Origin: Siphonodentalium dalli
Lineage: Eukaryota; Mollusca; Scaphopoda; Gadilida; Siphonodentaliidae
NCBI GenBank assembly: GCA_032622095.1
Contig: CP136064.1
Coordinates: forward strand, 174,042,310-174,106,309
Direction of reading: 5' to 3'
DNA: 64,000 bases
Positions within the stretch are counted from its first letter, which is position 1; every line of letters starts with the position of its first letter. A model generated the notes under the pieces. The model did no database searches and was not told the DNA's origin. It saw only the letters and a list, made by a program, of their open reading frames with translations. This document shows, piece by piece, positions 8,256-64,000 of this stretch. Made by a program: the position numbers and the translations under genes.

Positions 8256-10660
8256 ATGTTGATTGATTGATTGATTTTTATTTTCATAAAAACAATCAGC
8301 ATTTTAACACTATAAAATTTACAAATCACATAGTTACATTGATAAAAGTAATACCAAATTGACAGAGCTGAAAATTTGAATGAGAAGATATTTATGTTGG
8401 CTTATAAGAGGCTGTAAAATTAGAGATGTTAGAAAGGAGAGTAGGTGGGCAGACTAATCGAAAATAAGAAGATGAATGCTGAGGGCTATCAAGGATGACA
8501 CAAAAAGTCCCAGAAGGGACTTATTTCCATTGTGGTCCTTAGGAAGCTCCCAGCGACACGGGAGTGTTGAAATAATTCCACTGTTGTCAATTCGTCAGTT
8601 GAGTTTTGTATTATTTAAAAATAGTATTTAATAATAGTATGAGACTACTCCATGACAGGAATTGGGTTTAAAATATTGGTATAAAATTGCTTCATTAACC
8701 CTTTCAATTGATGATTGAAAGTAACTAACATTTCTGGGAGGATATACCCAGATGGTTATAACGGAGATGGAGAAGGGGGGGGGGGGGTCATCGTTTGTTT
8801 AGTGCAAAAAGGGGTGAGTGAGGGGGGGGGTAAAATATGGAAAAGTTAAGATGTTATAAAGACACTGGCTGGAGTCTCTGGGTTCTGCGACGGGTTCAGC
8901 AGCCTATTGACTAGCTTCCAGGCCGAATGCCATCAAACTTATTTCGAAATTAAGTGATCATATAGAGTTTTTAAATATCCCACTCCAAGAAAACCAAGTC
9001 AGAGTTGGAATCAAGTAGAGAAACTCTCTCTGAATGACCACAAACGCAATGCCGTTGTGCAATCATATCATCCTGGAGTGGGCTATTTCTTGCTCGGCGT
9101 ATTACTCCATTGCATAATCCAGAGACCTCATACATACTAGTATGCCTTTGTTGGTTTGTGATGTATATAAACAAAATTCCTCAAATGGCTTAAAAGTATA
9201 CAAGGGGATTTTCATCGCGTATTTTCAAATTGTTGAGAAGGTGATCTTTTACACATTTCTTCCAATGTTTATAATCAAAGCTATTGTGACAGGCTTTGTC
9301 GAGGCTATTCCAAAGTCTGATACCTGTATAATAAAAGGATTTCTTTCCATAAGTTCCCACTGAGGGAAGAGAAAATCTGAGAGGACCAGATCGACTGTCA
9401 TAAGGCGAATGAGCACGAGCATATGAGAAATGTTCCTTCATATATTCTGGTACTTTGTTTTCAGAGATCTTTAGGACCATACTCAATTTCAATAAGTTGA
9501 CCCTTTCGCTAGTGGAACCAATTTAGTGCCTTGAATTCCGTGTACCAAATCGTGGTACGATAATGGAGGGATTAAATATATCTCGCCAGTCTGTTTTGTG
9601 TTGCCTGCAGACGTTTCTTAGTTTTGACTGTAAGACTAGAAAACCAGAATGAATAGTCAAAATGGCGCTGAATTAATGCAGATACTAACATGATTCTACA
9701 TTTCTTGTTGAGAAAACATGCCTTCCTGTAGAGAAATATTAATCTTGAATTGGACTTTGAAAGGACTGATTGACCCATTAACTCATCATTTAGATTTTGA
9801 TCTAGTTGGACTCCAAGGTATTTGACCGAGTTGGTGGACCTGATGTCGATACCATTACATGATACGGATAGATGTGGTAATCCCTTGTAATTTCTAGGTT
9901 TAAACAAGATGGATTCAGTCTTTCCTAAATGTAATGACAACTTGTTGTCCACTAGCCACATACTAAGTTTGTCCATTTCCTGGCTAAGGGTATTTTGAAT
10001 GGTATCGACATCACGACCAGATACTATGAGGGCTGAGTCGTCCGCATACAAAAGAAGTTGACAATTTATGGCACCTGGAGTATCATTCACGTAGATAAGG
10101 AATAGTAACGACCCTAAGATCTAACCTTGTGGGACACCGCATGTTATGGGTTCAAATTCAGATAAAGTGCCCTGAATATCCACAGCCCGAGTTCTTCCTT
10201 TCAGGTAAGAGTTAAACCATGATAGGGTGATGTTATTAAGACCAAGCGTTTTTAGCTTTGTTAAGAGTATTTCATGGTTAACCGTATCAAAGGCCTTTTG
10301 TAGGTCAATGAAAATCACACCAGTTAAATTGCCTTTATCAAATTGATTCCTTATAAGGTCGGTTAAGTACAAGATACTGGTGTCTGTTGAAAAACCTGGT
10401 CGAAATCCTGATTGGTACTTGTACAGAAGGTTGTTAGATTTGGTTATACATTAGGCGTTCAAGAACTTTAGATGCTAGGTTTAGTACAGAGATAGGTCGA
10501 TAATTTCCAGGTGTCAACTTGTCGCCCTTCTTGTATATGGGGACCACCCTAGCCCTCTTTTGGTCTTCAGGAATTTCACCATTGCGAATAGATAGATTTA
10601 TAATATTTTGCAATGGTGATGATAAAACGGCAGCGCCATCTCTCAAGAATGTTGCCGGTA
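8256..10660 (-). mobile_element. Degenerate CR1/L2-like non-LTR retrotransposon, 5'-truncated
   Basis: Reading the minus strand from 10660 leftwards: RT finger region (VVPIYKKGDKLTPGNYRPIS, 10646-10434), IFIDLQKAFDTVNHEILL and GVPQG (10372-10121), then YADDSALI and VKYLGVQLD (10090-9572), then the post-RT region with YYTGIRLWNSLD (9492-9190). The 3' UTR continues to a (TGATT)n-type tail at 8256-8276, as in LINEs. The copy is dead: a one-base shift near 10434, an in-frame TAG at about 10122 just after GVPQG, another stop near 9570 and a further shift before 9492. The endonuclease is missing, so the insertion is truncated at about 10660. The family assignment is by motif recall, not alignment. 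Confidence 0.88.
9572..10646 (-). pseudogene. Reverse transcriptase pseudogene within the LINE
   Basis: This covers the fingers, palm and thumb of a LINE reverse transcriptase, which copies element RNA at a nicked target. The catalytic YADD motif is visible at the start of the 10090-9572 segment and the FIDLQKAFD motif in the 10372-10121 segment. Reading is broken by a stop codon replacing the residue after GVPQG and by a frameshift after MYNQI, so no functional enzyme could be made. No start codon or upstream endonuclease domain is present. Confidence 0.85.
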
Positions 10661-15754: not shown

Positions 15755-16235
15755 TGTGCAGTACATGGTGGTATCACCAAGGTGTGGTCTTACTTTTTGT
15801 AAGTCCGTTTGTCCGTCACACTTTTGAGTACCTTCATGGGTGTAATCATCTCCTCCTACAGATTTCATCCCATTTAAAACTTCAGAATATTGTTTTTTCC
15901 CATATATTGAAGTTGTGCAACGTGTATATAGATGACGGAAAAAAATATTTTTTTGACGGAGTTATTAACCCTTTTCGAATTTTCTGTATGATGGTACCTT
16001 CATGGTGTAATCAACTCCTCCTACAGTTTTGATCGTAGATATTTGAAACGTCAGAGTATTGTTACCCACATATTGGAGATGTGCAATATGTATATAGATG
16101 GCGGAAAAAAAATTTGACGGAATTATTAACCCTTTCGACTTAGAACATTTCAACATTTTTTTAAATTTCTTTAACAAAGCGGCATCGACTTACCACGTTG
16201 TCGGGGACACTGTGGTCGGCTGACCTTTTATTTTT
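15755..16235 (+). mobile_element. Non-autonomous tandem-unit element, inverted partner of 56785-57510
   Basis: Two units of about 155 bp carry TACCTTCATGGTGTAATCA, CTCCTCCTACAG, a TTGAAAC/ACTTCAGA stretch, GTGCAACGTGTATATAGATG, GACGGAAAAAAATATTTTT and TATTAACCCTTTTCG. The right end reads GCGGCATCGACTTACCACG, then GTCGGGGACACTGTGGTCGG. The same order appears complemented at 56785-57510, so the two are family members in opposite orientation. Confidence 0.75.
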
Positions 16236-22787: not shown

Positions 22788-23077
22788 TAGGTATATCGAG
22801 TGTCGAAGTTTTAATGACATTTGGTGTCAAGGAAGAAAGAAATAATCCATTCATGATGCCAAGTGTTGCTCTTCTCGTTAATTCTAAAATGTTCCAATGC
22901 CAAACAATGTTGAGCTGAGATACTGTATTATAGTGTTAAAACTATTTTATTCTCAAGAACTAGCACATATAAGACATAATATAAAGATAACAATTCAACA
23001 TGATTAGAGAACAGGATTTGGCAGTAAGCCAAAGGCTTATAGATTACCATTTCCTTGGTATATATATATATATACTA

Positions 23078-24163
23078 ACAGGTGACTCCGTCCGGGCTTG
23101 GACCTTGAATTGACCATTTTGAAGGTCAGGTCGGAGTCACTATTTGACCCGTCCAAAACACTCTCCGGACAAAATGATCCATAGGTATCAAATTTCGTCG
23201 AAATCCGTCCAGCAGTTTTCCCGGCCATAGCTAACAGACAAACAAACATATATTAGATCATGTGTGGGTACCCGTTTCAAGGTGAAGGTCACCTCGGGCG
23301 GAAAAACTGACCCGGTAAAAATCTCCCCCATTCCCAGGAACCCCTAAGTACGAACACAGACATATATAACACGCTCATGTCTGTACACAGACACAACACG
23401 CTCATGTCTGGACACATATACGCTCTTTATCAACGACACTGCGGATACGAACGCTCTTTAACTATCACGCGATTAACCCATGAATTCAAATTGCGGTGGC
23501 GGGGGATTGGAGAATGAGTGCTCTGACGTTCTCAGAAGCGGTGCGATGACACTCCATCTGGTATTTTACCCTTAGATAGGAAGTTTGGGCTCAATCTGGC
23601 CGGCAGTTTTCCCGGCCATAGCTAACAGACAAACAGACAAACAAACAGAAGTCCCAAAATATATATTAGACTAGCCGATGAGCCCGACGTTGTCCGGGCT
23701 ATTCAAAAACCAAATTTCAAGTCGATAGCTACACCTGTTTCCGAGATATGGTCTGCGCATGCGCGAAGCTGGCGTCGCACGGGCTCGGCGACCCGATAAA
23801 ATTCGTATCCGGGGCAAGATACATTCACATAGCAAATTTCAAGTCGATAGCTCCACCCGTTTCCGAGATCTCGTCTGCGCATGCGCGAAGTTGGTGTCGC
23901 ACGGGTTCGGCGACCCGATAAAATTCGTATCCGGGGCAAGATACATTCACATAGCAAATTTCAAGTCGATAGCTCCACCCGTTTCCGAGATCTCGTCTGC
24001 GCATGCGCCGCACGGGCTCGCCAATACGACAAGGTCGACCGCCTGGTCAAACTAAACACACGTACCAAGTTTCGTCCCGATCGGTCGAGAATCGTAGATT
24101 TGTATAAATGACAGACAAACATACATACAGACAAACAGAGGTCTTCAAAATATATATGAGATA
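23078..24163 (+). mobile_element. Composite non-autonomous element (copy 1), with 122-bp tandem units
   Basis: From left to right: CTAACAGGTGACTCCGTCC; GGTCAGGTCGGAGTCA; GACCCGTCCAAAACACT; TTCGTCGAAATCCGTCC; ACAGACAAACAAACA; TCAAGGTGAAGGTCACC; paired CGCTCTTT motifs (23421 and 23452); ACTAGCCGATGAGCCCGACG. Then come 122-bp tandem units (repeat starts 23711, 23833 and 23955), each with GCGCATGCGC, ending in GATCGGTCGAGAATCGTAG and an ATATATATGAGAT tail. The whole series recurs complemented and in the same order at 48467-49970. No coding sequence seen. Confidence 0.8.
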
Positions 24164-30098: not shown

Positions 30099-30880
30099 GT
30101 AATTACACGTTTGATAACTGTTACTTGGTTCCAATTCTGAATCCCTACAAAGAATGACTGAATCCATTGTGCTTGTATCTGAATAGACATAACTATAATA
30201 AAAACATACTGTGATATTAACTGTAATAAAAATTTACTATTAGGAGCTTTCTCAGTAACGAATATCATACTACAATTTATTTAGAAATTATCTACTTCCA
30301 TATCTTCCCACTACGGCAAAATACTGATGTTAATGTTAACATTTAACCCTTTGAGTGCCAGGGGCCGATCTTATCGACCCTAATTTACGGTGTGTAAAAT
30401 CGGCCCTAAAAAAAAACAAAATCTATTTTTTGGGGTTGCATTTTTTTGGGTATGCTTAAGCATGCTATAGCGAATTTAAAAACAAACTGGATAAAATCTT
30501 AGGGGCATGTTATAACTCAAAACTATCACCAAGTATTCATAGTAATAATTTTGATGCTCATGAAAAACATGAGATTCACTGGCACTAAACCTACAAAAAT
30601 AAGTCTGTTAAAGAATATAAGAAAAAATTATGAAAAATTGTTAGGCCAATGCATTCTCTTATATATGCGAGGCGACCTATGGTCGACTCGCATATATAAG
30701 AGAATGCATTGGCACAGGGTATATGGGTTGATACAAAAATCGGACCTGGCACTCAAAGGGTTAAACAGAATGTTATTTTATCATGTTTTAAAATATTGAC
30801 CTCGTGATTATAGATATAGCGCTAGCGATGTCTCTTTTTTGCCAAATTCGATAATCATTTATATGTTGTTAATTTTACAG
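30099..30880 (+). other. MECOM intron holding a piggyBac-like MITE
   Basis: GTAATT donor, AATTTTACAG acceptor. More than half of its 782 bases is the MITE at 30347-30760. No exon for the vertebrate second finger was seen inside. Confidence 0.8.
30347..30760. mobile_element. piggyBac-like MITE with internal palindrome (family B, copy 1)
   Basis: Flanked by TTAA at 30343-30346 and 30761-30764. The terminal inverted repeats are CCCTTTGAGTGCCAGG on the left and the exact complement on the right (CCTGGCACTCAAAGGG). The interior has GGGCCGATCTTATCG near the left end. A 26-bp perfect inverted repeat (arms 30646-30671 and 30687-30712, reading CCAATGCATTCTCTTATATA then TGCGAG) has a 15-base loop. A 232-bp relative in opposite orientation is at 63463-63694. 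It has no transposase and sits inside a MECOM intron. Confidence 0.88.
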
Positions 30881-30980: not shown

Positions 30981-31504
30981 GTAAGTAAAACAATAAGAAC
31001 CATGCCATTTAACAAGCATTCGTTTACCTTATCACACTAGACAGCGATTATGGCAACTCTGATAATAAATGTAATTTTCTTTGCGTCTGCGTTAGCTTAC
31101 CACTTCTAACCTGTATAGACAAAATAATCTTAATGCATAATAGCTCAAGGCGACTGTGTTGTGGCAGTTAACTAGGCCAATAATGAATAGATCCTTGCAA
31201 CTGATTCTCCGCCTGCATGGTCTAGTGGAAAGAGGGGGGGTAGATACTTTCTCATAACCAGCTTGTTCAAAGTTTGAAAGAAACCTACCTTCTACGACAA
31301 TATTAATCAAGTTATTCTGAGGCAGGGACATTCACCAAGTCACTTTTCATTCATTTCTGGATTTATATACGTCTCACTATTACTACACAATGTATTCACC
31401 GACGAGACAACCATGAATTTTTAATTTCTATTTGTCAATTTTTGATCTGGCAAACACGGTATGTTTCAAATTAGCTTATCGATATTCCATTTTTCATCCT
31501 GCAG
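30981..31504 (+). other. MECOM intron (30981-31504)
   Basis: GTAAGT donor and CATCCTGCAG acceptor, 524 bases. No other feature recognised. Confidence 0.85.
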
Positions 31505-33193
31505 CTCACTCATGACAGCAACAGGCGATTTCCATGTGACCAATGCGACAAACTATTCACCGACCCCAGTAATCTTCAACGTCACGTCAGAACTCAACAC
31601 GTCGGGGGTAGGTGTCACACCTGTACAGAATGCGGCAAAACATTTGCAACCTCTAGCGGGCTGAAGCAGCATCAACACATCCATAGCAGCGTTAAACCGT
31701 TCCAGTGTGAAGTCTGTCTCAAAGCCTACACCCAGTTCTCCAACCTGTGTCGCCACAAACGCATGCACGCCGACTGTCGACAGCAGATAAAATGCAAGGA
31801 TTGTGGACAAGCATTCTCGACAGTTACTTCACTTTCCAAGCACAAACGATTTTGCGATGGTTCTGCCAAGATGCCAACTCTTCATCCAAACAACGCCAAT
31901 CGACTTCACATGCCCTCACCATTCCTCAGTGCCTTCGGTTCCAGACCGCCATTCCCGATGTTTCCGTACGGCCCGTCCATGGTACCACACAACCCCATGA
32001 TGCCACACCTCAACAACCTGCCAATGTTCCCGACGAAGGTCGACGACATGGTCAATGACATCAAACCACAAGTCGCGTTCCCAGGGCTTGGACTTCAACT
32101 GCCGACATTCAACCGAGATATTTTCGCCGCCGCTCCTCTACGACCACCATCCGAGAAGAGTTCTCCAAATAGCGGTAGTAGTTCGGACAGTGACCGTAGT
32201 GATTCTAAGTCAGACAGCTCCATGAAGCTTGAGACGGACGCCGAGATGATTTCGCCCATCAACGAGAGTCGACCCAGTCATTCGCCGAGCTTCAACGACA
32301 AATGTGCAGATCAGCCTTTAGACTTGAGTGTTAAGCGCGCACCAGTTCGGGAAGTTCCCGAAATTCTGAAACAACGTGAGACTACACCACCAAACCTCAT
32401 CGACAACAAACTTCATAGTGCCTTTCCTTCAATGACGTCACTTCCTGAGCAGGTCGACAACAAACTCCCGAGTGCTTTCACCTCATCTTACGGCAGATTT
32501 CCGATGACTCATCCAGCTTTCATGGGACTCAGTCCATTCGGTTTGGTAAACTTTTGCAGACCTGAGCCAACATACCCATCTCAGTTCTCTCCCTTCAAGT
32601 TCGACAAGTCACCACAGATGTCGCTTTCGCCGATGGGCAAGGATCGTTACTCGTGTAAGTTCTGTGGGAAAGTGTTTCCCCGTTCAGCTAACCTCACTCG
32701 ACATCTCAGAACCCACACAGGCGAGCAGCCTTACCGATGCAAGTATTGTGAACGTTCATTCAGCATTTCATCTAACCTTCAACGTCACGTGCGTAACATT
32801 CACAACAAAGAGAAACCGTTCCGCTGCCCTCTGTGTGACCGATGTTTCGGGCAGCAGACGAACCTCGACCGACACATCAAGAAGCATGAAATGAACGCAC
32901 CTCTCTCACCGATATCTTCACCAACACACGGCGACATAGACGATGATGACATTGAGGAAGAAATTGATGTTTCTGGTTGTTCTGACACTTGTCTGCAGAT
33001 TGACATGAGTGCTAAGAAGGATTCTGATTGTGATGCCTACAATGATAGTGATTGTTCGGACTTGAATGACAACAACCCCAGTAAGCGACTCAAGTTTAGC
33101 GATGAGTCGGGGGAGGAGCGAGAACTTTACGGTCGACTCAGCCCCAGCGAGGGATTCTCACTACCACAGACCCTGACGACAGCAGTGTGTTAA
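31505..33193 (+). CDS. MECOM: MECOM/PRDM16 (PRDM3/16, EVI1) transcription factor, large terminal coding exon
   Basis: A sequence-specific nuclear zinc-finger regulator; family members control cell fate and chromatin. This exon encodes 562 residues to TAA at 33191. Numbering from the ATG at 29011, four C2H2-type fingers complete the first cluster (about C104, C133, C161, C190), with diagnostic [35 protein letters not shown] and IKCKDCGQ. A Pro/Ser-rich middle carries PLDLSVK (364-370), a CtBP-corepressor-binding motif. The second cluster has three fingers (C477-H497, C505-H526, C534-H554) with [19 protein letters not shown] and [11 protein letters not shown], nearly identical to vertebrate EVI1. 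An acidic tail ([10 protein letters not shown]) follows. The tail is much shorter than in vertebrates. MECOM versus PRDM16 cannot be split; invertebrates usually have one copy. Confidence 0.95.
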
Positions 33194-34040: not shown

Positions 34041-34205
34041 GGCGGGAGCATCCTGAAATTTGCGAAAACACTTGTGCCAATGTATTCTCTTATATATGCG
34101 AGTCTCCCATATGAAGTCTAGCATATATAAGAGCATACATTGGCCTAACAATATTTACGTTGACCTTGTAAGCCAATGCATTCTCTTATATATGCGAGGC
34201 TTCTA
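34027..34205. mobile_element. Palindrome-bearing repeat related to MITE family B
   Basis: Begins TTAACCCTTCTATGGCGG. It contains a hairpin (left arm CCAATGTATTCTCTTATATA from 34077, right arm ending CATTGG at 34143), then GGCCTAACAATATTTACG, then a second half-palindrome with TGCATTCTCTTATATATGCG ending near 34200. No right-hand GGGTTAA was found, so the right end is unknown. Confidence 0.65.
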
Positions 34206-34974: not shown

Positions 34975-34975
34975 A

Positions 34976-35108
34976 GCCTGGCATATATAATAGAATACAT
35001 TGGCCTAACAACATTTACATTGATATTGTAAGCCAGTGCATCATCTTATATATGCATGCGAGACTCCCTATTGGAGACTTGTATATATAAGAGAATGCAA
35101 TGGCACAT
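34976..35108. mobile_element. Palindrome-bearing repeat, family B related
   Basis: A half-palindrome (GCATATATAATAGAATACAT, then TGGCCTAACA) is followed by ACATTTACATTGATATTGTA. Then comes a full hairpin from GCCAGTGCATCATCTTATAT (35032) to TATAAGAGAATGCAATGGC (35105). Block order matches 34077-34200 and, complemented, 43250-43410. Confidence 0.7.
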
Positions 35109-37666: not shown

Positions 37667-38114
37667 GCAATATACGCCCTCTCTTGGGTCGGCGGAAACT
37701 GGTAAAAAAGGGGCATAACTCTGGTAAAAATTGGCGGGCGGAACTCAAATTCGAACTTGACCTGTGTTTTGGTGGGAGAAAGTAATATACCAAATTATCA
37801 TTGAATCCGATAAGCTCTAGTAAAGTTATCATCCGGACAACAAATTTCAGGGATTTTCTAAGTCAAATTACGTCAAATAAGGGGCATAACTCCGGTGAAA
37901 ATTGGCGGACGGAACCCAAATTCGAACTTGAACTTACTTTTCGGCTAATAAACCCACATACCGAAATTTTATTAAATTTGGTTCACTCTAACTAAAGTTA
38001 TCATCCGGACAACAGGTTAACGGACGGACGCCCGCCCGGACGCCCGCCCGCCCGGACGCCCGGACGGACGGACCAATACTATAATACGGCATTTTTTTCA
38101 AAAGGGCGTATAAT
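37667..38114 (-). mobile_element. Non-autonomous element with TATACGCCC ends (second member)
   Basis: The left end is ATATACGCCCTCTC. The right end is the complement of TATACGCCCTTTTGAAAAAA, preceded by a (GGACGCCC)n-type G/C tract (about 38018-38070). It holds two tandem units of about 165 bp, each with GGGGCATAACTCYGGTRAAA, TTGGCGG, AATTCGAACTTG and AAAGTTATCATCCGGACAAC. These are the complement of the units at 7503-7900. Confidence 0.7.
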
Positions 38115-39912: not shown

Positions 39913-39917
39913 ACATT

Positions 39918-40415
39918 CACGGTGGGGAATCACGTGGTTTCGAGTTGATGAGAATCACACATTCAAAATGGCCGAGGTGATCTAAAACGCAACTAAAAGC
40001 AAAGAAAAAGGTAATAAACTAAGATATGACATATTTTTTTTGACAGCTACGAGCAGATGCTATACTATTTTTCAAGCAAGCTGACACCTCATTTATGTCC
40101 AAACCCACATTTGATTGCTCTAACAATCTGACCAAAGTTGTCAGTCGAAGGATTCTCCAAGATGTATGGACTGTCGTATTCCACGCACATCCGACTGGCA
40201 ACTTTGGTCAGAATGTTATAGAAAAAGTATTTCCGAACAAAAAGGTATCAACTTGTTTAAAAAATAGACTATAGCATATGCTCGTAACAGTCGAAATGCT
40301 ATGTTTTGAGTCAGTTCGTCATATAATTTTTTTTTTGGGGTGCTTTTGCACTAGGCTCGGCAATTTTGTATGCGTGGTACTCACCAACCTCGAAACCACG
40401 TGATTCCCCATCGTG
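39918..40415. mobile_element. Candidate Transib/RAG-like non-autonomous element, 5-bp target duplication
   Basis: The left end is CACGGTGGGGAATCACGTGG, then TTTCGAG. The right end is the complement of CACGATGGGGAATCACGTGG, then TTTCGAG: 26 of 27 identical, with weaker similarity for about 15 more bases. A 5-bp direct repeat ACATT flanks it at 39913-39917 and 40416-40420. Transib elements and RAG transposons make 5-bp duplications, and their ends begin with a CACNRTG heptamer like the V(D)J signal. The 498-bp interior has no credible transposase. Superfamily assignment rests on end sequence and duplication length only. Confidence 0.55.
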
Positions 40416-40420
40416 ACATT

Positions 40421-43250
40421 GGTATCGAAAAAATATCAGTTTGAATATTCTGCTTGTTATTAACTGAAACGTGTTTGGAGATACATTTTCTGAAGTTATA
40501 GGTTTTCTCGTCAATGCTATCATAATTCTTGAGTATCTCAATCATCTAAAAGTAAAAAATTCCCACATCTCGCAATTTTCGGTGTTATTTTAACCCAAGA
40601 ATTATCATAGAAATAAGATTTTTGACAGCTACTACAGGAGTAAAAATGCACTATTTCCAACCAGTCACTTCATTGGCGCTCCGCCAAATTCGGTTTTCAT
40701 TGCTATATGTAGCCTATTGAAGATTGGAGATACGTACAACATAACAGCACTGAAACTTATTTGATCACATGGTTCAAAATAATTCAATTCACTATAATAG
40801 TCCGACTGTTCTCTCTTATCATTTTCTACTTCACCCACTTGACTATATCCATATACTATACACTTTTATCGTCCCCTGCGACCATCATTACATTGTTACT
40901 ACTACACACTATCTCTCCATCTCTCTTCATCCATACTTCACCACGCCAACGCCCAACACCATCATCATATTTGTATTTGTATAAATGTGTATGTAAATAT
41001 AACTCTCCCATGAGTTAAAGATTTAAAAAAACAAAAAGCCTCTCATTCAAATTTGGTATACTTATAATTTATGTTAGACATAGTGGTGATTTTCGGACAT
41101 GAAATCCCTCTCCGAATCGGATGTATCAGTTTCCCGTCAAAACGGACTATAAACGAACTCTATATCACTCAGAATTCATGTCGACAGTGGAATTGGGACA
41201 TCACTGTATGCAGTGCATGGGTAACGCTATGTATCGGTACAATAACATTTTGAAATTTCAGACTGAATACTAGATTAAGACTGCTCAGTTTGCTATATGT
41301 TGAATATTTAGTGCTAACTATCTGCATGGTTGAATATTTCTTGAGTTCGGTCAGATTTTAGATTCACTATAAATTTTACACTCTGCATGTACGACACTTA
41401 TGAGTTCTTTGTAATTTTGTAATTTTCGTGCATGAGGTATCATTTTGAATATTTCAATCCAATCCGATCCAATTGGGTTATTTTGTCTGGTTCATGGGAG
41501 GCATGATGGGAGCTATTTGTACAGTTATAACAGCACAATCCATTGAACACACAATGACCTGGATTATATAATTTTATCGGTAACAAATCGAGTAAGAAAT
41601 GCAATAATGGTGTTCGAATCTCCAATGAACAAACTATCTAAGATGGCGCTCAACGCTTTCTCCAACACGAACATAATATGATAATTTGCATATATGGAAA
41701 CGACATATCTACCTTCGCGTGTGTGCAGCTAGCTTAAGAAAAGTGAAGGATGGATATATATAAACTATAAATCAAGATCTGCATGGCTCTAGAAATGGCG
41801 ACCAAAATGGCCGAATCCACGAAAAAGCTTAAATATTCGACTGAGTTTCAATTTGTGTACGGACTATATAACTTTCCAGCCACCATATACACGTTGATGC
41901 AAATATAATTCACTCATAACCATCAGAAGAAATACTAATTTCTGTGACAAAATAAAACACATCTATCATTTAGGTTCATATGCTCTAAAGGAGACACTCG
42001 AACTATGTTATACCTCTTGGTCACGAGGAAAAGGACTGCACGGTCGCATGGAAATTACTTATAATCTATACGTATCCGCCCAAGACCGTTTTTCGTGTTC
42101 TCCAATTGTGTTCTCGGCTTATTTGTTCGTGACGACGATATTAAAAATAAATCGGATATAAACTATATGGGGCTCAAAGGGATAGCCTATGAGAAGCATC
42201 CCAATCTATCTATCATTCCGATCTGAATATTGCCGTTTCGAAATAAGAAATTAAAATTCTTCACGTATTCTGGAGCAATGTGCCTCTCATAAGGGCGAAT
42301 GTCTTCAGCATTCAATCAGAGATCTATACTAGTATCTAAAATGATTGCACGGAAATCACAATACGAGGTATTGACATATCATAGAATATCGCCAATTACC
42401 GAGGCTATATATTCGAAGAGTTAACAAACGCTTACACCATCCAGGATAGTATCAAAGTGATCCATTGTCTTCATCCACAATGCAATGCCAGAACAGCTAT
42501 TTGGTTTTCGAATGTCCGAAGTTACCCGCGTCGAGCATCGATCGATTTGAAGCCACTTACTGGATACAATTACCTCTTCACACTACACAACACGATATTT
42601 AATTATCACTTGCAAAGACCAATGATAGCACACAATAAAGCAGTGAAAATGTTTTTATGCAGAAAATTGATTTTCTGCATTGACATCTTGATTAATTGTT
42701 TCGTCCCGTTTCACTTTAATTTCATGACAGTTTGTTATTCTGTCGGCATTTAAGATTGATTGTTCCCCGGCGTAAATCCGGCGCATAAGACTTCCCCTGC
42801 TTTCACTTGAGGCTGGGAGATACAATGCCAACAAATGGAAGATATATGTTCAGGTAACATCAAGGTGTGCTAAAGAACGGTGATCGATTTAATGGCACTT
42901 ACGGCGCTCCATACATTACCAAGAAAACCCGCGCCGCAAATCTGACAATTATCCTATCTATACTAGATATTAACGCTGGAGTTGGCAGTTCCAGCTCGTT
43001 GCAAAAAGTCAATCCATGAATGGACAAAATGATTAAAACCATTCTGTTCCAATTATATCCGGTTTAAAGGTACCACTGATGTTTCAGAGACAATCAAACT
43101 CCAATATGTTTGTATATATGCAACAATATGAGCCTCATGAAATATCAATATTGATATTTGCTGAAAACTAAAACAAAATCCGTGTTGACCCAAATACGAT
43201 CATGAAACATGATCATAACGGGAGCTGCGCTGGTGCAGCATTAAAGATCC
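40421..43250. other. Unannotated DNA, nothing recognised
   Basis: No supported exon or bounded element. GATTTTTGACAGCTAC at about 40617 repeats a motif inside the neighbouring element (near 40034). Confidence 0.4.
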
Positions 43251-43412
43251 TGTGCAAGTGCATGCTCTTATATATGCGAGTCAGCCTAGCACATATAAGG
43301 GAGTGTACTGGCTTACACTGTCAAGGTAAATATTGTTAGGCCAGTGTATGCTCTCATATATGCGAGGCTCCCTGTGGGAGACTAGCATATATGAGAGAAT
43401 GCATAGGTACAG
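43251..43412. mobile_element. Palindrome-bearing repeat, family B related (two hairpins)
   Basis: Hairpin 1 (about 43253-43312) and hairpin 2 (about 43339-43410, CCAGTGTATGCTCTCATATA paired with TATATGAGAGAATGCAT) are joined by GGCTTACACTGTCAAGGTAA then ATATTGTTAGGCC. The joiner is the complement of that at 34142-34175. Confidence 0.75.
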
Positions 43413-43431
43413 GGTTTTTGCAAAATTTCAG

Positions 43432-47923: not shown

Positions 47924-48466
47924 CAATAGGTACCGGTGGTATTTATTTTTTTATTTTTTTTGGCATTGAACCTCATTCCCCAAAAATTATAATCATAACT
48001 TAAAAAACATTAATTATACACCGGAAATAAAACGTGGAAAGTATACCTTTTTCCATGTTGTCAGCTTTAAGTGTGATAAATATCAAACGAAACACGTTAT
48101 TCAGGATTCATTATTGCACTTATGTGCTTATATATTGACGTAATTTTGTCACATTTGCAGAAACATTGGAACCGAAAACTCTTATAGCTATTTTTAAAAA
48201 TCCGTTTCCCTGTTATACTGCACCCATGCACCCTTCATGCATGTTTTGGCTTATGACATTTTTTTTTTGAATGTGTAACTGTAGTTTCTCTTGCATCTCA
48301 TTATGCAGAATATCTTTACTGGATAGGTGGCATTACTGCGTATTTCGAGAATTTCCATAAAAACTAAGATGGCCGCCAAAATGTCCGCTTTCCTCGCCAT
48401 CAGTATAATCAGCTATAAACGAACAAACGTAAAGTGGGTGGTATTTTATTAGTACAATACGTATCT
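47924..48466. other. Unannotated DNA
   Basis: Nothing recognised apart from poly-T runs. Confidence 0.4.
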
Positions 48467-49970
48467 CATATATATTTTTGAAGACCTCTGTCTGTATGTC
48501 TGTCTGTATGTCATTTATACAAATCTACGATTCTCGACCGATCGGGACGAAACTTGGTACGTGTGTGTAGTTTGACCAGGCGGTATCGGAAACGGGTGGA
48601 GCTATCGACTTGAAATTTGGTATGTGAATGTATCTTGCCCCGAATACGAATTTTATCGGGTCGCCGAGCCCGTGCGACACAAGCTTCGCGCATGCGCAGA
48701 CCAGATCTCGGAAACGGGTGGAGCTATCGACTTGAAATTTGGTATGTGAATGTATCTTGCCCCGGATACGAATTTTATCGGGTCGCCGAGCCCGTGCGAC
48801 ACAAGCTTCGCGCATGCGCAGACCAGATCTCGGAAACGGGTGGAGCTATCGACTTGAAATTTGCTATGTGAATGTATCTTGCCCCGGATACGAATTTTAT
48901 CGGGTCGCCGAGCCCGTGCGACGCAATCTTCGCGCATGCGCAGACCAGATCTCGGAAACGGGTGGAGCTATCGACTTGAAATTTGGTATGTGAATGTATC
49001 TTGCCCCGGATACGAATTTTATCGGGTCGCCGAGCCCGTGCGACGCCAGCTTCGCGCATACGCAGACCAGATCTCGGAAACGGGTAGAGCTATCGACTTG
49101 AAATTTGGTTTTTGAATAGCCCGGACAACGTCGGGCTCATCGGCTAGTCTAATATATATTTTGGGACTTCTGTGTGTTTGTCTGTTAGCTGTGGCCGGGA
49201 AAACGACTGGACCGATTGAGCGCAAACTTCCAATCTAAGGTTAAAAATCCACGGGAAGTGTTTACCGCTGTTTTGGAGAAGCTCCGAGCACCCCTTCTCC
49301 ACTCTCAGTCACCAAAATGACCGTCCTTGGCACTGTGGGGTTAATCGCGTTGATAGTTAAAGAGCGTTCGTATCTGCGATGTCGTTTATAAAGAGCGTAT
49401 GCGTGTAGTGTGATTCTTATGTCTGGGGCCAGACGTGAGTGTGTCTGTATCCAGAGATGAGCGTGTTGTGTGATTCTTATGTCTGTCTTCGTACTTAGGG
49501 GTTCCAAAGGACGGGGGAGATTTTCATCGGGTAAGTTTTTCCGCCCGAGGTGATCTTCACCTTGAAACGGGTACGCAGTGATCGCGTTTGGCTAACGAAA
49601 ACGACCTTCTCACATATATATATATCTCTAATATATTTTGGGACTTCTGTTTGTTTGTCTGTTTGTTTGTCTGTTAGCTATGGCCGGGAAAACTGCCGGA
49701 CGGATTTCGACGAAATTTGATACCTAGGGGTAATTGTGTCCGGGGAGTGTTTTGGACGGGTTAAATCGTGACCCCGACCTGACATTGACCTTCAAAATGG
49801 TATATTCAAGGTCAAATCGGGTAAAACTGACGGATTTCGCTAGGTGTACTTTTGTCCGGGGAGTGTTTTGGACGGGTCAAATCATGACTCCGACCTGACC
49901 TTGACCTTCAAATTGGTCAATTCAAGGTCAAAGCGCGGACGAAGTCGGGTCACCTGCTAGTATCTCAATA
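48467..49970 (-). mobile_element. Composite non-autonomous element (copy 2), inverted relative to 23078-24163
   Basis: Read on the minus strand, it repeats in the same order all blocks listed for copy 1. It has four full 122-bp tandem units (repeat starts 48609, 48731, 48853, 48975 and 49097), paired CGCTCTTT motifs (49359 and 49390), and two rather than one of the GACCCGTCCAAAACACT-bearing units at 49740-49965. It is longer than copy 1 because of extra units. No coding frame is credible: the 84-94 codon frames simply read through the tandem units. Confidence 0.8.
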
Positions 49971-49974
49971 TTTT

Positions 49975-53205: not shown

Positions 53206-54851
53206 TTCACATACACACACACACCCTCACCACACCCTAGAACCCACACTCGCACACATACATCCTCACACACACACACACACACCTACACACACACACC
53301 CTCACACGCACACACACACACACCCACCCTCACGTATCATCACATACTCCCCGCATGCACACGCACACAACGTGCACCCCGTGACAGTTCACGCTCTTTT
53401 ACATAGTTATAGGCTTGCTTGAGATCCCGCCATTCGACGCATAGGTTTACCTATTTTGTTGAGTGACTTCGACCTCATAAAAGTTCTGTACAGAGTTCAA
53501 CGCCAAATCATGCATCATTGCTGAAGCGTGCATGTGTTAGGCGAAGGCCGAAGTGCTAGCTGTTGGCTATAACTGGAGCTTGGCCATGTAAAATATCCTG
53601 TTAAAGATTTGACACCATCGTACTGTATGCTTTCCAAAGTAAATGTGTGTGGTGCACCATGAAAGAAACGAAACACATGGGCTCATCGATGAATGAATAA
53701 AGTTCGCCAGGTAATTTTGTTAGATGAAGAAGTACTAGTTCATCATCATCGAGTTCATCTGTCCAGAGGTAAAACAATCATCCAAATTTGTCAATTAGCT
53801 GGTACCACATACCATTTCGAAGGATGCATAATGCACGGTGATTACAGTAAATTAGAACATGCTTAATTACATCATGGTGAGTCATATTGCATAACATACA
53901 TACAGTAGGTTCACATGCATGTACAGCTGTGGCAGCTACTAATTGTGCAACTGTGAAAAAGGCACCCTTTCTATCTGGGTAAATGCGACAGCATCGCCAC
54001 AAAAGGGACAATTGCAGGCAACTATGCATTTTCCCGAAACGAAGAAGGGATGGGTCATTATCAATATTGCGCTTCCAGTCGAGTTCACGTTTGTTATTTA
54101 ACTTCAGTTTTGAGTATACGGGACCATTCTGATTTTGTTGGAAACATGCCGCGATAGGAGAATTGGTAAAAGTATTGAACAATGTTATATGACATGAGAA
54201 TACGATCAATATCGGAGAAGAACGAGTTTGGGTTGACGTACTCCCCAGAGAGATGCGAGTGTAATCTTAAGGTGAAGATTTCTTTGCACGCTTTGGTAGG
54301 TGATAATCGACAAAGACTACCAAAGAGGCTGAGTTTACGAGCATCTATGGTTGAGCAGATAGAGCCTAAGCCCATAAGACCAGACACGATGTCAGTTCTA
54401 GCTCTCACCGGCAATGCTTGTATTCGCTTCAAACAAAATCGGTGAATTTTCTCGAGATCTGATATGTTTGCTTGAGACATACCGCAAAGGAATTCTGTCC
54501 CATACAAGCCTTTTGGCAACACAATTGATTCATATATGATTGCACAACTTGATGGTGTGATACCACCAGCATAGAGCCCGGCGTTGCTCAAAAGAAAGTA
54601 TGTAGATAGGATTTTATCTACTACCACTTCAACAAATTCCTTTACAAAATTGACTTTACTAATGTGAATACCCAAATGTGTGATTTCATCAGTTTCGGAT
54701 ACAATTCCATCCCCAAGATACCATTCTCGATTTAAGGCACCATTTTGACGTACGTTTTCGTTGAATGCAATGACTTTGGTTTTCTTTGGGTTATACCTGA
54801 ATCTCCACTTTTGGCTGTAAGATGAGCATATATCTAATAGGCGCTGTAAAA
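52786..54851 (-). mobile_element. 5'-truncated non-LTR retrotransposon inserted in the minisatellite
   Basis: The minus-strand frame from about 54851 to 54094 starts LLQRLLDICSSYSQKWRFRY, then NPKKTKVIAF: the LINE region downstream of the YADD core. A second frame (54209-53778) carries CMLCNMTHHDVIKHVLIYC, a CxxC-H-C zinc-binding pattern seen at LINE C termini. A frame change separates the two. The minus-strand 3' end falls in an AT-repeat tail (52786-52797). The insertion interrupts the tandem array and is flanked by a 265/268-bp direct repeat. Confidence 0.8.
53055..53345. repeat. (CT)n and (CA)n microsatellite
   Basis: About 290 bp of CT-rich then CA-rich simple sequence within the 3' portion of the LINE insertion. 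Frames through it (Leu/Ser and His/Thr repeats) are not genes. Confidence 0.95.
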
Positions 54852-55400
54852 GACGTGTATATGTAAGTGAGCGGTGGCTGTAAGGCCGTGTGTGTGGTAT
54901 TTGATGTAATTGGAAGGGCTGTATGACCATTGGTAATGTGTATATGTATACCTGGAGTGACTGTATGGTCCTGGGTGGGGTGTATATGTATATATTGAGT
55001 GGCTATATGATCATAGATGATGCGAACAGGCATACATGGAGTGACTGTATGGTCATAGGTGATGTGGGTAGGTTTACAGGGATTGACTGTATGCTCATGA
55101 ATGACGGGAATAGGTATATTAGGCGTGACTGATTGTATGGTCACTAATGTGGTGAATATATGCAGATAGTGACTAAATGTAGTATTGGAGTATACCTGAT
55201 GTGCCTGCATGGTGAATCATGGCTGTATGGTCACGTGTGAAGATGGGTGTACATATATACCCAAATGTGGCTGTATATGGTCATGGATGAGGTGTAGTGG
55301 TATACATAGAGTGGCTGCATTTGTGTGGTGTTTGCGTATAAAGGGAGTGACTGTATGGTCATGGGTCGGTTGTACATGTATACTTTGGTGGCTGTCGCTT
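54852..55400. repeat. Degenerate minisatellite, right part, starting with the duplicated 268 bp
   Basis: 54852-55119 matches 52521-52785 with about six differences. After 55119 the array continues in the same style (GGCGTGACTGATTGTATGGTC and so on) to about 55400. Confidence 0.85.
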
Positions 55401-56784
55401 TCCACAAAAAAATCGAGGATACTTATCTTAATCGAGAGTGAGGTCATATTAGAGATTTCTCACGTGGCGTTTATGCACAATGGAATAAACGCTAAACGGT
55501 TTTCCTGACAAAAGTTGAATCCAACGAGACGATGTAGCCCGGGCGTGTTATGACATCTCCAGTTTCTGACAATAATTGTTATGCGAAAATCCCAATTCCA
55601 AACTACCATTAGATTTGATTGAATAGCTTATGCTGTTGTTGTTTTACGTGGAAGTATGGACAACTGAAGACATTCTCGGCATCTCAGAGCAACCATAACC
55701 ATATTCGCATGAGGTAAAATCCGTTTATGTTTTGAGGACAGTGCACCATTATCGTTGTATTGGTTGTCATAGGAGTATCCGTTGTTTGTTTTTTGTTGTT
55801 GTTGAGAAACCACTTTTCCGGACCACCAAGAACAACACCGTTGCTGAATTATATTGGGCCGGCATAACAATAAAAATATGTGGTGCCATTTTCTTTCGCT
55901 ATGCCGGTACTGCCATAAGTAGATGTTATGAAAAACAATGGGATAATTCCAAACATTTGTCATTACAAGGTAAGCTGTAGTTGCAGAATACTTATTTTTG
56001 TGAATTCTCAGTATCAAATTCATGGCAAAAAAAATCGATTTTTAATATTTTATAAAATTATTTATTTCGCCACTTAGTTCTGTATATTGATACATTTTTT
56101 GGGAAGTTTAATCAATTTGCTCCACAACAAAACCATTTCCATAGTAGACATTCCAGGAAAATGATCTGTTATGACCAAATTACTTCCCCTCACCGCATCA
56201 AAATTTCTACCAAAAGACAATTGACATATTGACATTCCATCCGTGCGTCAGAATTTTCGATTTCTGCCCATTATACTTTAATAATAATAAAAAACTGCCT
56301 TAGCTATTACTCTTTACAAAATAATAGGAGAATAACTATAGACATCGACATTAAGACCATGTCGACCCTCAGAATACTTTAATTGTTGCTTTTTCACACT
56401 CTTCGCAAAATTAAAAAAAATAATTTAAATTTAAATTCGCGAAAAATACAATAATATATCCATGTTAATTTGGTTGTATACATACTACAATTATATGATA
56501 ACACCCCTTCAAATTGAAACCAACTGCACTTCGATATATGTAACACTATGTCCAGTATTAGGGGAATTACCTACCCCTACCCCACCAATTTAGACAAACC
56601 CTACCCACAATTTTGACAAATACGATAAAACATAAACAGTGCCATAAAATTCGAATGCACGACACTTTTCAGGTGGCAGACATGCTCCAACCGATACGGA
56701 ATGTCATAAGAATTGTCTCTTAAAAATTCCGCAGAGGGGGGGGGGGTCCATATATGTTGGCTCAGGGTCTATATTAAGTATAAT
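55401..56784. other. Unannotated DNA
   Basis: No supported feature. An 82-codon frame at 55732-55980 ends near a possible GTAAGC donor (55971) but has no recognised domain. A G10 run lies near 56737. Confidence 0.35.
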
Positions 56785-57510
56785 AAAAGGTCAGCCGACC
56801 ACAGTCCCCCGACAACGTGGCAAGTCGATGCCGCTTTGTTAAAGAAATTAAAAAAAATGTTGAAATGTTCTAAGTCGAAAAGGTTTAATAACTCCGTAAA
56901 TAAATAATTTTTCCGTCATCTATATACATGTTGCACATCTCCAATATGTGGGTAACCATACTCTGAAGTTTCAATTATCTACGATCAAAACTATAGGAGG
57001 AGTTGATTACACCATGAAGGTAGGCCTACCCTCATCCAGAAAATTATAAAAAATGGTGAAATTTTCTAAGTCGAAAAGGGTTAATAACTCGATCTGTCAA
57101 AAAAATATTTTTTCATCATCTATATACATGTTGCACATCTTCAATATATGGGCAACAATATTCTGAAGTTTCAAATCTCTATAGGATGAAAACTGTAGGA
57201 GGAGTTGATTACACCATGAAGGTAGGCCTACCCTCCTACTGAAAATTATAAAAAATGGTGAAATTTTCTAAGTCGAAAAGGGTTAATTCTCCGTCAAAAA
57301 AATATTTTTCCGTCATCTATGAGCAACAATATTATGAAGTTTCAAATCTCTGGGATGAAATCTGTAGGAGGAGATGATTACAGCATGAAGGTACTCAATT
57401 TGAAGTGTGAGGGACGGGCGGACGGACGGACAAACGAACGGCTAGACGAACGGACGGACGGAACCCGTTTCTATAGTCCCCCTTCTCTTTCAGAACGTCG
57501 GGGGACAATA
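56785..57510 (-). mobile_element. Non-autonomous tandem-unit element, inverted partner of 15755-16235
   Basis: The left end has GTCAGCCGACCACAG then TCCCCCGACAACGTGG. The right end is CGTCGGGGGACAATAA, so the termini share an inverted CCCCCGAC. Inside are three units of about 150 bp with TTTTCCGTCATCTATATACA, TGTTGCACATCTYCAAT, AGGAGGAGTTGATTACACC and ATGAAGGTA. A GGACGGACGG tract lies near the right end. It stops about 150 bp upstream of the POLR2D start codon. Confidence 0.75.
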
Positions 57511-58941: not shown

Positions 58942-61900
58942 GTATTGTTTATATAAATAGTTACATATATACTCTTGGGTGCCTAATAAACATACATGTA
59001 CGATTGTTAAATTTGAATTAAAATTGCCGCCTGACGCCTGTACGATCGTTATTTGGCCCTGTACGTTTATTCAATTTGGCGGTCGAAATATGTCAACCAA
59101 ACTTTTTTTTTATACAGGGATGATTTGTGATTATTGAACAAATAAAGCGTGTGTGTTGATTCGTATGCACATTCGAAGACTCAGTTATCTACACATCGAA
59201 ACTATTTCTGTTAGGCCAAAAAAAAAGTGTTTTGGTTCTCTGGCAATTTCTTTTTCAAATCAATGAGGGAGGGAGGGTTTTATTTTTATTTTTTATTTTT
59301 TTCTGCGCATAGTAAGCATGGACAAAGATACCTTCCTCTGTCTAGTAATAACCAGAAAGGTAGAGGGAACTGTTATGCATATAAACTCATTTAGTCTTAT
59401 ATAAAAATGACATTGTACTACCAGTGTATGACTGGGATTACCTAACAATATATAATGCCCCTGACATTAACTACTGTTATTGTTGTCTAAAACCTGATAC
59501 CTCCCCATTCTAATATGTGATCCTGAATTTAGTCCTGTGCCTTTCAATTGTATAAAGTTACAATTAGTGTAAGTTGTTCACAGTGACTAATTGTAAGAAG
59601 AGCATGAGGATCAGCTAATCATTTTCTTAATTGTAGTCATCTACTTCATGTTGTAAGCCTGTAAGTCACTTTTTAACACATTACATGTTAGAGCTCAATG
59701 CACACTAATATTCGACACATATCTGCTATGGACATGTTGATAAAATGCAAATATTTTTTATTTTTTTTCGTAAGTTTTTTTGTCATAACATCAGCCCTGT
59801 ATGTTAATCCGCCCTGTATGTTTATTAAAAAATTGGGAATATTCCGCCCTGTATGTTTATTCCGCCCTGTATGTTTATTAGGCACTCAAGAGTATGGTGG
59901 TTTATATTTGAGTAATCAGAAATTTTGTCTATTGAAAGATATATAGTAAGATACAAGAGCACACCAGTGACCAAAAAAAAAATTAATTCGTGTATATAAT
60001 TTTACCCCCCCCCCCCCCCCAATAACTTGGACTGGCCATGACTTGATGCAGCATATTGTATTTAAGTTATTTCGTACTCCGCATGTATAATGTTTCGCTG
60101 ATTCTTGGTATACAGTGGGCGTTTTATTTATAGAAATGGGAATTTTTGGGACGGATTAAAAGTCGAACTGCGACCCGGAGGCCGAGTCCGGTAGAAGATG
60201 TAGTTTGTAATTCTGGTGAGATGCAAGAGAAAACTTCAGTGATAAGCCATATATACATATAGTTGTTGTAATAATTTGAAGGATTAGTTGTTTTAACGGA
60301 ATTATGAGTTGGTCATTCATGAAAGCAATATATTTTATATTCTACAATTACAATCATGGGTATATAATGTATGATCTTGAGCGCGTTACCATTTCTGACA
60401 TTGGTTTTCTTGTTTCAGATAATGCGTGATAGTCTGGGCATGGTTATGTACATGTATTTGTATCCTCTGTGTAACATTAGTATACCTTTCCTAACATCAT
60501 CATATATCCCCTTCCAAATACTGAAATCTAACAACTAATCCACCATAGACATAACTTGGTTCAAGCTTTTATCCATTAATTTTCTAGTCAGTTTTAAAAA
60601 AACTATTAAAAAAACATTGAACAGATATTTTTCGCCATGGGAACTTAAAATAATGAGATCAATGGTAAGATTTATTTTAGTTATTGCCCCAATCAACGAA
60701 ATTTGTTTGCAACATGCACAATTTTTCAACTTTTGAAATAATTGGCTATCGATGCAGATTTGCAGACATAACCTATTCGAGGCAAATAATGTTTTCTAGT
60801 ATAATCTTGATATAATACGAGATATTCATTTATTTCATCTGTAGCTATTGCATTAGTGGTTATTGTCAGGTGATATTTTATCCGGGTGACTAGAAATCAC
60901 CGGTGTCCGTCCCAGATGGTTTCTGGATGATATCTTCAGTAATATTTAATGAAATTAAACAATGTTTGGTTTGTGAGATTGTTGGTTAAGAGCAGAGGTC
61001 ATGTTTGAATATGGGTGTGATCTGTCAATTTTTACTGGAGTTATAGTCCTTGTTGACTTAGAATTTGCATGACTATTTTGATTTCTGGATGATAACTTTA
61101 GTTTTAGTTATCTGATTGTTTGCAAATATTGTACGAGGATTACCCGCATAAAAATATATGTCAAGTTTGAATACGGGTGCTGTCTGCCCATTTTTACTAG
61201 AGTTGTTGTCCTTGTTGACTTATAATATGCCAATTATTTTGGTTTCCAGATGATAAATTATCCAATTGTTTTCAAATTTGGTATATGGACTACTCTTATG
61301 AAAATTCAGGTCATGTACGATTTGGTTTGGTCCACCAAATTTTACAGGAGTTATGGCCCTTGTCGACTTAGAATTTGTCGGGGGACATTTGGCCAAGTAT
61401 CTTTTGATTAATTTCTATTTCATGATGTTTCTAAAGATATGCCTATTTAAAGGCATGGACCACAACCATATTTGCTACTTTTATATGAGTTTAACACAGA
61501 TTTAAAAAAATTTAAAGGCCCACTTAATTTTCGTATCACTGAATATTTTTTGTTATAGTGCCTTGATATACGGTTTGAATAACTATCTATGCCATAAAAT
61601 ATGATTCAAATACTATAATTCATCACCATTTGGAACGTCGGTGTCTCAGAAGGTGCCATAGAGTAATAGAAAGTAGCTGAAATCATAAAAATCATTCCCC
61701 CTGTTATGCCTCCCAGAATGCAACAGAATTCAAATTATAGTTTATTTTCAATGGAAGGGGAATTACTCAATATCTAAATATATAGAGTTAAACCCATCCA
61801 TTGAAAATAATAGACTTTGTGCAGAAACTTGAGCACAGAACAGACATCAATATCTCAACAAAAACAACATGTTCATATGGCATATATTTTATACATGTGT

Positions 61901-62200: not shown

Positions 62201-64000
62201 GTAAAGGTCTACACTATCAGTCGTAAGAATTGAGTGATCAGTACATTTTCCTGAATCTTGTTCCAGGCAGTATTCAGGAACAGACTCGGCTAATTCATGA
62301 TGTCATTCCAGTACACCTCACCAAATACCGGTAGCTATAAATGGCATAATCAATTTTCTGTCACATTGCTAATTTCACAGAGCTTTTACCAATTTAGAGA
62401 TTAGGACAACTGACACTAAAAACATCTATGAAGAGTCCTTAATTGACTAATAATACCTAGAAAGGCGAATAGAATTAAGTATTTCCAAGATTTTCAAAAG
62501 TTAGCACACTATATGTTACCTGTGAAAACGAAACTGGAAGCAGATATCTGTCAATCGTAAAACTATATTTAATGCGAAATGTGCATGGTGGCTTCATAGA
62601 TGGGGAAAGCTATTTATGGTGATGGTATTTAAATGGGAAGGGTGTTGAAATGTTTCAGACTATAGAACTCATAGCTAATTCTATAGTCTGTATTTTAATT
62701 AGACTGTGAAGACACTGGCTCAGTATGGTATGTTCATATGTGTGTGAACAAATTATCATTTAGATATATTTTCTGTGACTTGTTGTTTGCCTGCAGGTTT
62801 CCTAAAGTAATATCAATGTTCTGTTAAAATAGTCTTACTGATTGTCTAATAAAGATGAATGTTTTCCAAATAAAATTTGGTACCTACAGTGGTTTGAAAC
62901 CTCCTGTTTTATGTATTTCTGTATAAACTACGATGCCTGGAAGACCAGTCTTCTAAATTTTGCTATATTGGTGCCAACTTGGTGGGTCCTATGATTGTCC
63001 CCCAAAAACAAATTTCGGGGGACTAAAGAAATCTGCACAATCCCAGATGGTTTCCGGATGATGACCTTAATTAATAGTTTTAGTTATCTGATTGTTTGCA
63101 TGTATGATTTCATATGTGGATTACCCACATGAAAATACACCTCAAGTTTGAATTTGGTCCGACCCATTTTGCCATAGTTATGGTCCTTTTTTACTTAGAA
63201 TTTGCCAATTATTTTGGTTTTCTTGTGATAACTTTAGTTTTAGTTACCTGATTGTTTTCAAATTTTGTATGTGGATTAGCCTCGTGAAATTACAGGTAAA
63301 GTTCGAATTTGTATTCAGTCCAATAATTTTTGCCAGAGTTATGGTCCTTGTTGACTGATTTAGTATTGCTTTTCTATAAAGTTGGTTACACTACTTTTCT
63401 TTCATTCCATTTATACCATAGTCATAATGCATCCAAACAAGTCATTCCACATGTAGTGTTAACCCTTTGAGTGCCAGGTCGATTTTTGTGTCAACCCATA
63501 TACCCTGTGCCAATGCATTCTCTTATATATGCGAGTCGACCATAGGTCACCTCGCATATATAAGAGAATGCATTGGCCTAACCTTTTTTTTTTTTTTTTT
63601 TTTTTTACAATTTTAATAATTTATTCTTATATTCTTTAACAGACTTATTTTGTAGGTTTAGGGCCGATGAGATCGGCCCCTGGCACTCAAAGGGTTAAGA
63701 CAGTTTTTAGCTATTGTCGTGTGTTGGCATCCGTTCGTGAGTCAATAATTTCCCTTGGCACACCCCACTTCCCTCATCTGATCATCACCGATTTCACAGG
63801 GATCTTTGGGGTGACCTTTAGATGGGAGCAATCAATATTTTTCTGAATTTTGTTAAAAAAAACATGGCCACCAGCAGCCATCTTGGAGTTCACATATGAA
63901 TTCATCGGCACACATTTATTGGAGAATTCTTTTAATAATTTACAGGCATGTTTAGGATCACTTCTAGATGGGAGCTATTGATTTTGAATAATTTTTTATG
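62201..64000 (+). other. POLR2D intron 3 (partial)
   Basis: GTAAAG donor; no acceptor assigned. It contains about three degenerate units of about 125 bp (63040-63360; GGTTTCCGGATGATGACCTT, CATAGTTATGGTCCTTTTTT), the family B MITE, and ATGGCCACCAGCAGCCATCT at about 63864, the complement of a stretch near 20060. Confidence 0.75.
63463..63694. mobile_element. piggyBac-like MITE with internal palindrome (family B, copy 2)
   Basis: TTAA at 63459-63462 and 63695-63698. The ends are CCCTTTGAGTGCCAGG and its exact complement. The 26-bp palindrome arms are at 63510-63535 and 63551-63576 with a 15-base loop. A T23-class run follows. GGGCCGATGAGATCGGCCCC lies next to the right end. It is the reverse orientation of copy 1 (30347-30760) and 182 bp shorter. 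Confidence 0.9.

Follow-up and report, generated by a model that had tools for sequence, protein, structure and literature searches.

We have examined an element of 498 bp located in a 64-kb window (the whole stretch of DNA analysed here), and the evidence leaves very little doubt that it is a non-autonomous cut-and-paste MITE with 5-bp target duplications. It has what characterizes these elements: it is short and non-coding, it carries terminal inverted repeats (TIRs) and a target duplication, and it is accompanied by many dispersed copies and by element-free sites. The family moved as a unit, duplicated 5 bp of its target, entered AT-rich sites that include other repeats and left thousands of ends genome-wide. 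An initial annotation of the window had already proposed a non-autonomous inverted-repeat element (MITE), and the copies, the 5-bp duplications and the CACNRYR-type ends bear this out. Actually, that annotation understated the element, which is a palindrome over its whole length, and one of the two terminal words on which it relied, CACGATG, is a minority variant. The family is an ordinary but numerous MITE family, probably of Transib type. Taken as a whole, with a transposase of the Transib/RAG type included, we consider the cut-and-paste explanation moderately probable.

Structure of the element

The features of the element are collected in Table 1. It had been described as having 27-bp inverted ends that start with CACGGTG and CACGATG and are 96% identical, and so they are: the arms 39917-39944 and 40389-40416 (28 nt) are 96% identical, and inside the element 26 of the 27 pairs match. 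Even when up to 3 mismatches are allowed, CACGRTGGGGAATCACGTGG is found in the 64-kb window at the two ends of the element and nowhere else; the chance expectation is a mean of 0.01, and two or more occurrences were found in 0 of 100 shuffles. The CACGTG palindrome noticed earlier at a fixed distance in each TIR falls at the same place in both ends because the TIR is repeated. Besides, CACGTGG constitutes a second heptamer-like word, 13 bp inward of the first heptamer.

Table 1. Coordinates of the element, its inverted-repeat blocks and its target-site duplications in the window.
Feature	Position	Strand	Remarks
Whole element, imperfect palindrome, 498 bp	39918..40415	.	one family member; consensus of the family 505 bp
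5' terminal inverted repeat, starts CACGGTG	39918..39944	+	
3' terminal inverted repeat, starts CACGATG on the - strand	40389..40415	-	
CACGTG palindrome, positions 14-19 of 5' end	39931..39936	.	
CACGTG palindrome, positions 14-19 of 3' end	40397..40402	.	
Inner inverted-repeat block, left arm	40038..40072	+	80% to partner 40262-40296
Inner inverted-repeat block, right arm	40262..40296	-	partner 40038-40072
Centre-proximal inverted-repeat block, left arm	40115..40147	+	88% to partner 40192-40224
Centre-proximal inverted-repeat block, right arm	40192..40224	-	partner 40115-40147
Left target-site duplication ACATT	39913..39917	.	length 5 fixed by other copies
Right target-site duplication ACATT	40416..40420	.	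length 5 fixed by other copies

The inverted repeat spans the whole element, which is 68% identical to its own reverse complement over an alignment of 510 columns (E 4e-38). Even without the ends, the interior gives a self-complement score of 137, whereas 300 shuffles averaged -2.6 (sd 11.5) and reached no more than 34. The longest stop-free frame within the 498 bp has 76 codons. Exact 18-base inverted repeats within 1 kb appeared in 0 of 20 dinucleotide shuffles of the window, yet they are found at several further places in the real one, so that palindromes as such are common here. What sets this element apart from the others is its duplication and its copies.

We found no further copy of the element within the window, where the best other blastn match was no better than E 0.026. 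A search with both arms by nhmmer gave a single weak match in the window, at 40610-40706, 195 bp outside the element, that was not significant (E 0.18). Colinear with the inner left arm, this segment resembles it weakly; in local alignment, 35 of 300 shuffles scored as high as the right flank. There were no matches in Rfam at gathering thresholds, and the tRNA search gave none. In collections that do not include animals, the 20-base end pattern matched no viral and no bacterial or archaeal contig, and an 18-base inner piece matched no viral contig. End pieces of 14 and 15 letters, in both orientations, did not occur in the main text of papers.

Copy number, consensus and age of the family

The host genome (2.23 Gb in 9 contigs) was searched, and the best 40 of 3,506 first-look candidates were scored. 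Looking for other copies by the 27-bp end, as had been suggested, proved rewarding: with at most one mismatch there are 2,566 such ends in the genome (1,242 + 1,324), while the reversed-pattern control gave 0 + 0. The 39 copies that we compared with the one in the window are 84-88% identical to it and are distributed over all 9 contigs. The consensus of the 40 is 505 bp long and starts with CACGGTG at both ends, so that the CACGATG of the window copy is a minority variant, which recurs at a single end in L025, L037 and L053. The palindrome is clearer in the consensus, with 192 of 240 aligned pairs matching (80%) versus 68% in the window copy. From the outside inwards, the arms agree in 26/26, 31/34, 27/40, 54/68, 15/25 and 31/35 positions, with 8/11 at the loop edge; that is, the outer 26 bp are identical and the inner blocks range from 60 to 91%.

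The copies differ from the consensus by 5.2% at non-CpG sites and by 8.9% at CpG sites. The mean pairwise distance between them is 9.9%, about twice the distance to the consensus, in keeping with a star-like burst from few master sequences, and the sampled copies stem from an old burst. In the initial annotation, the existence of a non-autonomous member was taken to imply an active transposase somewhere in the genome. The ages seen are old, with copies about 5% from the consensus in a star pattern, and leave that suggestion unsupported, as far as the 39 copies reach: they were chosen as the best matches to the window copy, a choice that may have disfavoured subfamilies of very low or very high age. 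The closest pair, L023 and L037, only 1.2% apart, has common flanks and is a segmental duplication. Common flanks likewise identify the two MITE copies of L049 as a duplication. Within a tandem duplication at another locus, two identical MITE copies (L050:3603-4134 and 6439-6970) lie 2,836 bp apart.

Target duplication and insertion sites

The target duplication of this family is 5 bp. The ACATT duplication reported before abuts both ends of the window copy flush, and a flush 5-bp match at the spacing of the element occurs at 103 of 63,460 window positions (0.16%). Its length is upheld by the other copies. Our sample consisted of the window copy and its 39 best host-genome matches, 35 of the 40 being readable at both ends; five (L019, L020, L040, L043 and L044) were dropped when the alignment ended before an element end, a rule that was not uniform, as L010, L021 and L036 were kept despite 1-4 unaligned end bases. 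Exact flush duplications of 2, 3, 4, 5, 6, 7, 8, 9 and 10 bp were found in 8, 2, 2, 19, 2, 0, 1, 0 and 0 of the 35 copies, and the per-base match was 0.85 at length 5 versus 0.27-0.40 at the other lengths. At length 5 the agreement was 5/5 in 19 copies, 4/5 in 12, 3/5 in one (L030), and 1/5 or 0/5 in three (L016, L024 and L036). Without the window copy the exact 5-bp duplications are 18/34, and across all 40 copies they are 19/40, none of the five dropped copies having a flush 5-bp match. L023 and L037, both with 4/5, represent one insertion, given their common flanks. The flanks of L036 match over 6 bases, which allows a reading as a 5-bp duplication with one base added; the same gap of a single base is left by its element-free relative.

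The exact duplications have A at the first base in 14 of 19 cases and T at the last base in 12 of 19. They are AT-rich, with G or C in 15 of 95 bases (16%) versus 37.7% in the flanks (p 3.8e-6).

Comparing filled with empty sites was another check proposed at the outset. We joined the flanks of the 40 copies, with one duplication copy removed, and compared them with the window and with host-genome loci L001-L008. Element-free relatives across the junction appeared for three insertions. The joined flanks of L011 align without gaps over the junction to a neighbouring repeat in L004 (114/132), those of L012 align to window repeats (147/200 and 94/116) with gaps near the junction, and those of L036 match an element-free relative in 107/129 positions, a single base being gapped at the junction. 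In these cases the element has inserted into pre-existing repeats.

Search for a parent element

We have looked for a longer, transposase-bearing parent in small samples of loci, on which the following negatives rest. None was found around exact ends in 20 stretches of 6-9 kb; of the 2,566 ends in the genome, 100 exact ones were listed, and these stretches take in 25 of them. Similarity to the MITE continues inward for about 210 bp or more in 19 of the stretches and for 92 bp in L062. Frames of at least 150 codons in the 20 stretches, inspected by eye, have coordinates outside the elements. One locus with 1,045 bp between its ends, L048, was rejected as a longer relative, being a MITE copy interrupted by other DNA. 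At 78 places in the genome (control 1) the centre-proximal arm is followed by foreign sequence; 10 of these 78 loci were fetched, and all were copies with indels, inserts or truncations, with no parent among them.

A half-copy at L076:1514-1725 was also discarded as a parent. The remaining part of that MITE reappears at L080:4521-4850, about 5.6 kb away and with 90% identity. In between lie an endonuclease domain (PF03372) and a reverse-transcriptase domain (PF00078), so that this is a MITE split by a non-LTR retrotransposon. The two parts have about 85 bp in common (consensus 154-238), perhaps the target duplication of the retrotransposon.

A search of the host genome with PF12940, run without a positive control, gave nothing credible as a RAG1-like gene. 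Its single match (E 2.14, L079:103-2613) is clearly spurious, a tandem repeat of units of about 28 bp that is open in three frames over more than 830 codons. Among the fetched stretches, L062:1-65 contains tandem 40-bp units, each combining bases 1-24 of the MITE end with 16 further bases, and the 92-bp partial MITE follows immediately. They are apparently a MITE end turned minisatellite, with only the last units in the fetched stretch.

Proposed mechanism and possible relationship to Transib and RAG

In the mechanism that we propose, the family would have been moved in trans by a cut-and-paste DDE transposase, putatively of the Transib/RAG kind. The enzyme would have recognised the outer 26-60 bp of the element, cleaved at CAC and inserted the ends into the target DNA with a 5-bp stagger. 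We take these outer 26-60 bp as the part bound by the transposase because the arms are identical or nearly so there, whereas further inward they had diverged by the time of the burst. The palindrome may go back to a longer parent, one end of which was duplicated in inverted orientation; the inner arms would then have drifted apart, before the burst, the outer ends recognised by the transposase staying identical. The family presumably no longer moves.

The initial annotation placed the element in the Transib/RAG group. Part of the argument stands, namely the CAC ends, the heptamer pattern and the 5-bp duplication, whereas the AT-rich duplications, the departure from the RAG-like end consensus and the lack of a nonamer go against it; membership is plausible. 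Transib and RAG-like transposons are described as having both CAC ends and 5-bp duplications in the pertinent parts of PMC7204232, PMC4411706 and PMC8289069, and 5 bp is the Transib criterion in the relevant section of a survey of MITEs in Helicoverpa (PMC9033116). Mouse RAG prefers heptamers of the pattern CACNRYR, according to an extract of PMC9723617, and both heptamers of the element conform to it, as does the CACGGTG found at both ends of the consensus. In the mouse RAG assay of the same extract, beside GG both heptamers fall in the bottom quartile and are poor substrates there; the figures in its Table 1 are 0.054 for CACGATGGG, 0.022 for CACGGTGGG and 0.020 for the canonical CACAGTGGG.

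Transib and its non-autonomous members, as portrayed in portions of PMC4411706, PMC8289069, PMC8355894 and PMC9033116, resemble this family in their 5-bp duplications, in their CAC heptamer ends alike on both sides and in their short non-autonomous forms. In contrast to them, the family has AT-rich duplications and no nonamer-like block, it is palindromic throughout, and no transposase was found in the sampled loci. Transib is further characterized by cleavage with a hairpin formed on the flank. A GC bias of target duplications is reported for ProtoRAG, Transib and RAG in the section of PMC8289069 concerned, and the AT-rich duplications of this family do not follow it; we regard this bias as a preference rather than a strict criterion. 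Protostome RAG-like (RAGL) transposons share the 5-bp duplications and the CAC ends, and non-autonomous RAGL copies are reported in an oyster (excerpts of PMC7204232). Their end consensus in the same excerpts is CACTWMCAAACKTYKBB, with AAA at positions 8-10; the ends of our element read CACGGTGGGGAATCACG, with GGG at 8-10, and their agreement with that consensus is limited to the CAC and to scattered later positions. Full-length RAGL transposons carry a RAG1L-RAG2L gene pair, and no RAG1L was found either (PF12940, without a positive control). A survey of mainly bivalve genomes gives, in the part concerned, a single Transib element (PMC10294476); the present host, an animal and, judging by its repeats and genes, perhaps a mollusc, may not be a bivalve. 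As to a nonamer, the best matches in the element ends, 5/9 and 6/9, do not exceed chance: when the letters of the 5' end were shuffled 2,000 times, at least 6/9 came up in 520 cases.

In other superfamilies, MITEs of the foldback or long-TIR type are also short and present in high copy number, with an inverted repeat over nearly the whole length; this family differs from them in its duplication length of 5 and its CAC ends. The same cut-and-paste MITE could owe its movement to a transposase from a different superfamily, be it known or undescribed, with a 5-bp stagger, the CAC ends being there by chance. Among the large DNA-transposon superfamilies of animals, no other one is known to us that combines CAC ends with a duplication always 5 bp long, which counts against this, and we regard it as a possible but lesser candidate. 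In its favour are the AT-rich duplications, the mismatch of the ends with the protostome RAG-like consensus (as given in the excerpts of PMC7204232) and a PF12940 search, lacking a positive control, that gave no RAG1-like match.

An undescribed branch of the RAG/Transib type would have AT-rich targets and, at each end, a doubled heptamer, CACGGTGG with CACGTGG at a distance of 13 bp; both sides would be symmetrical and devoid of the 12/23 asymmetry. We think this unlikely. The block GCCATTTTG (consensus 47-55, opposite strand) agrees in 8/9 positions with the TR5 block of ProtoRAG, GCCATCTTG (in the passage of PMC8289069 concerned), in another orientation and spacing; this likeness, spotted by eye after the fact, is not significant alone and is a weak lead.

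Far less probable is a hairpin-RNA locus, a source of siRNA or miRNA kept for its transcript and not a transposon. The predicted RNA fold is indeed very stable on either strand (z -16.8, with 0 of 100 shuffles equally stable). However, the mismatches between the arms are without G-U bias, with 16 G-U versus 15 A-C in the window copy and 6 versus 11 in the 40-copy consensus, so that selection on a one-strand transcript does not explain the symmetry. Besides, dispersed copies with target duplications and element-free sites are those of a transposon. An element with a 3-bp CAT duplication and ends one base longer (TCAC...GTGA) is a formally possible second reading of the window copy alone, but it needs the form A....T, present in 9 of the 19 copies with exact duplications, and in the other 10 the base beside CAC or GTG differs and yet all five duplicated bases agree; because of these other copies we chose the 5-bp reading, the additional T and A lie outside the element, and the 3-bp reading is refuted.

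If the parent of this cut-and-paste MITE were Transib/RAG-like, the family would be a large natural resource for the study of how RAG relatives in this genome recognise their ends and choose their targets. If it were something else, CAC ends with 5-bp duplications would not be diagnostic of Transib. Either way this is chiefly an annotation result, a numerous and clearly bounded family with a 5-bp duplication signature.

Other features of the window

The element is located about 6.7 kb downstream of the end of the open frame 31475-33193, and no link between the two is implied. This frame of 572 codons has C2H2 zinc fingers in two clusters (Pfam), and its best solved-structure matches are zinc-finger proteins. 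We take it to resemble the 3' part of a PRDM3/16-hamlet-type gene.

Another palindromic repeat family, based on GCCAATGCATTCTCTTATATATGCGAG and unrelated to the element, is found at 30645-30713, 34076-34201, 34975-35107, 43283-43414 and 63509-63577. It forms hairpins of 30-33 bp, paired to 90-97% in the best copies, and is present also in L004, L019, L036 and L042. Inverted copies of a repeat of at least 1 kb with a 122-bp tandem array are found at 23064-24163 and 48462-49971, with pieces 79-96% identical. Similar array-bearing families are seen at 15803-16232 and 56782-57423, and at 7499-7881, 37702-38014, 60922-61377 and 63048-63359. An open frame at 9572-10120 has a reverse-transcriptase domain (PF00078, E 1.9e-7), and another frame, at 54094-55002, with no Pfam match at E 0.01, resembles a non-LTR element by eye.
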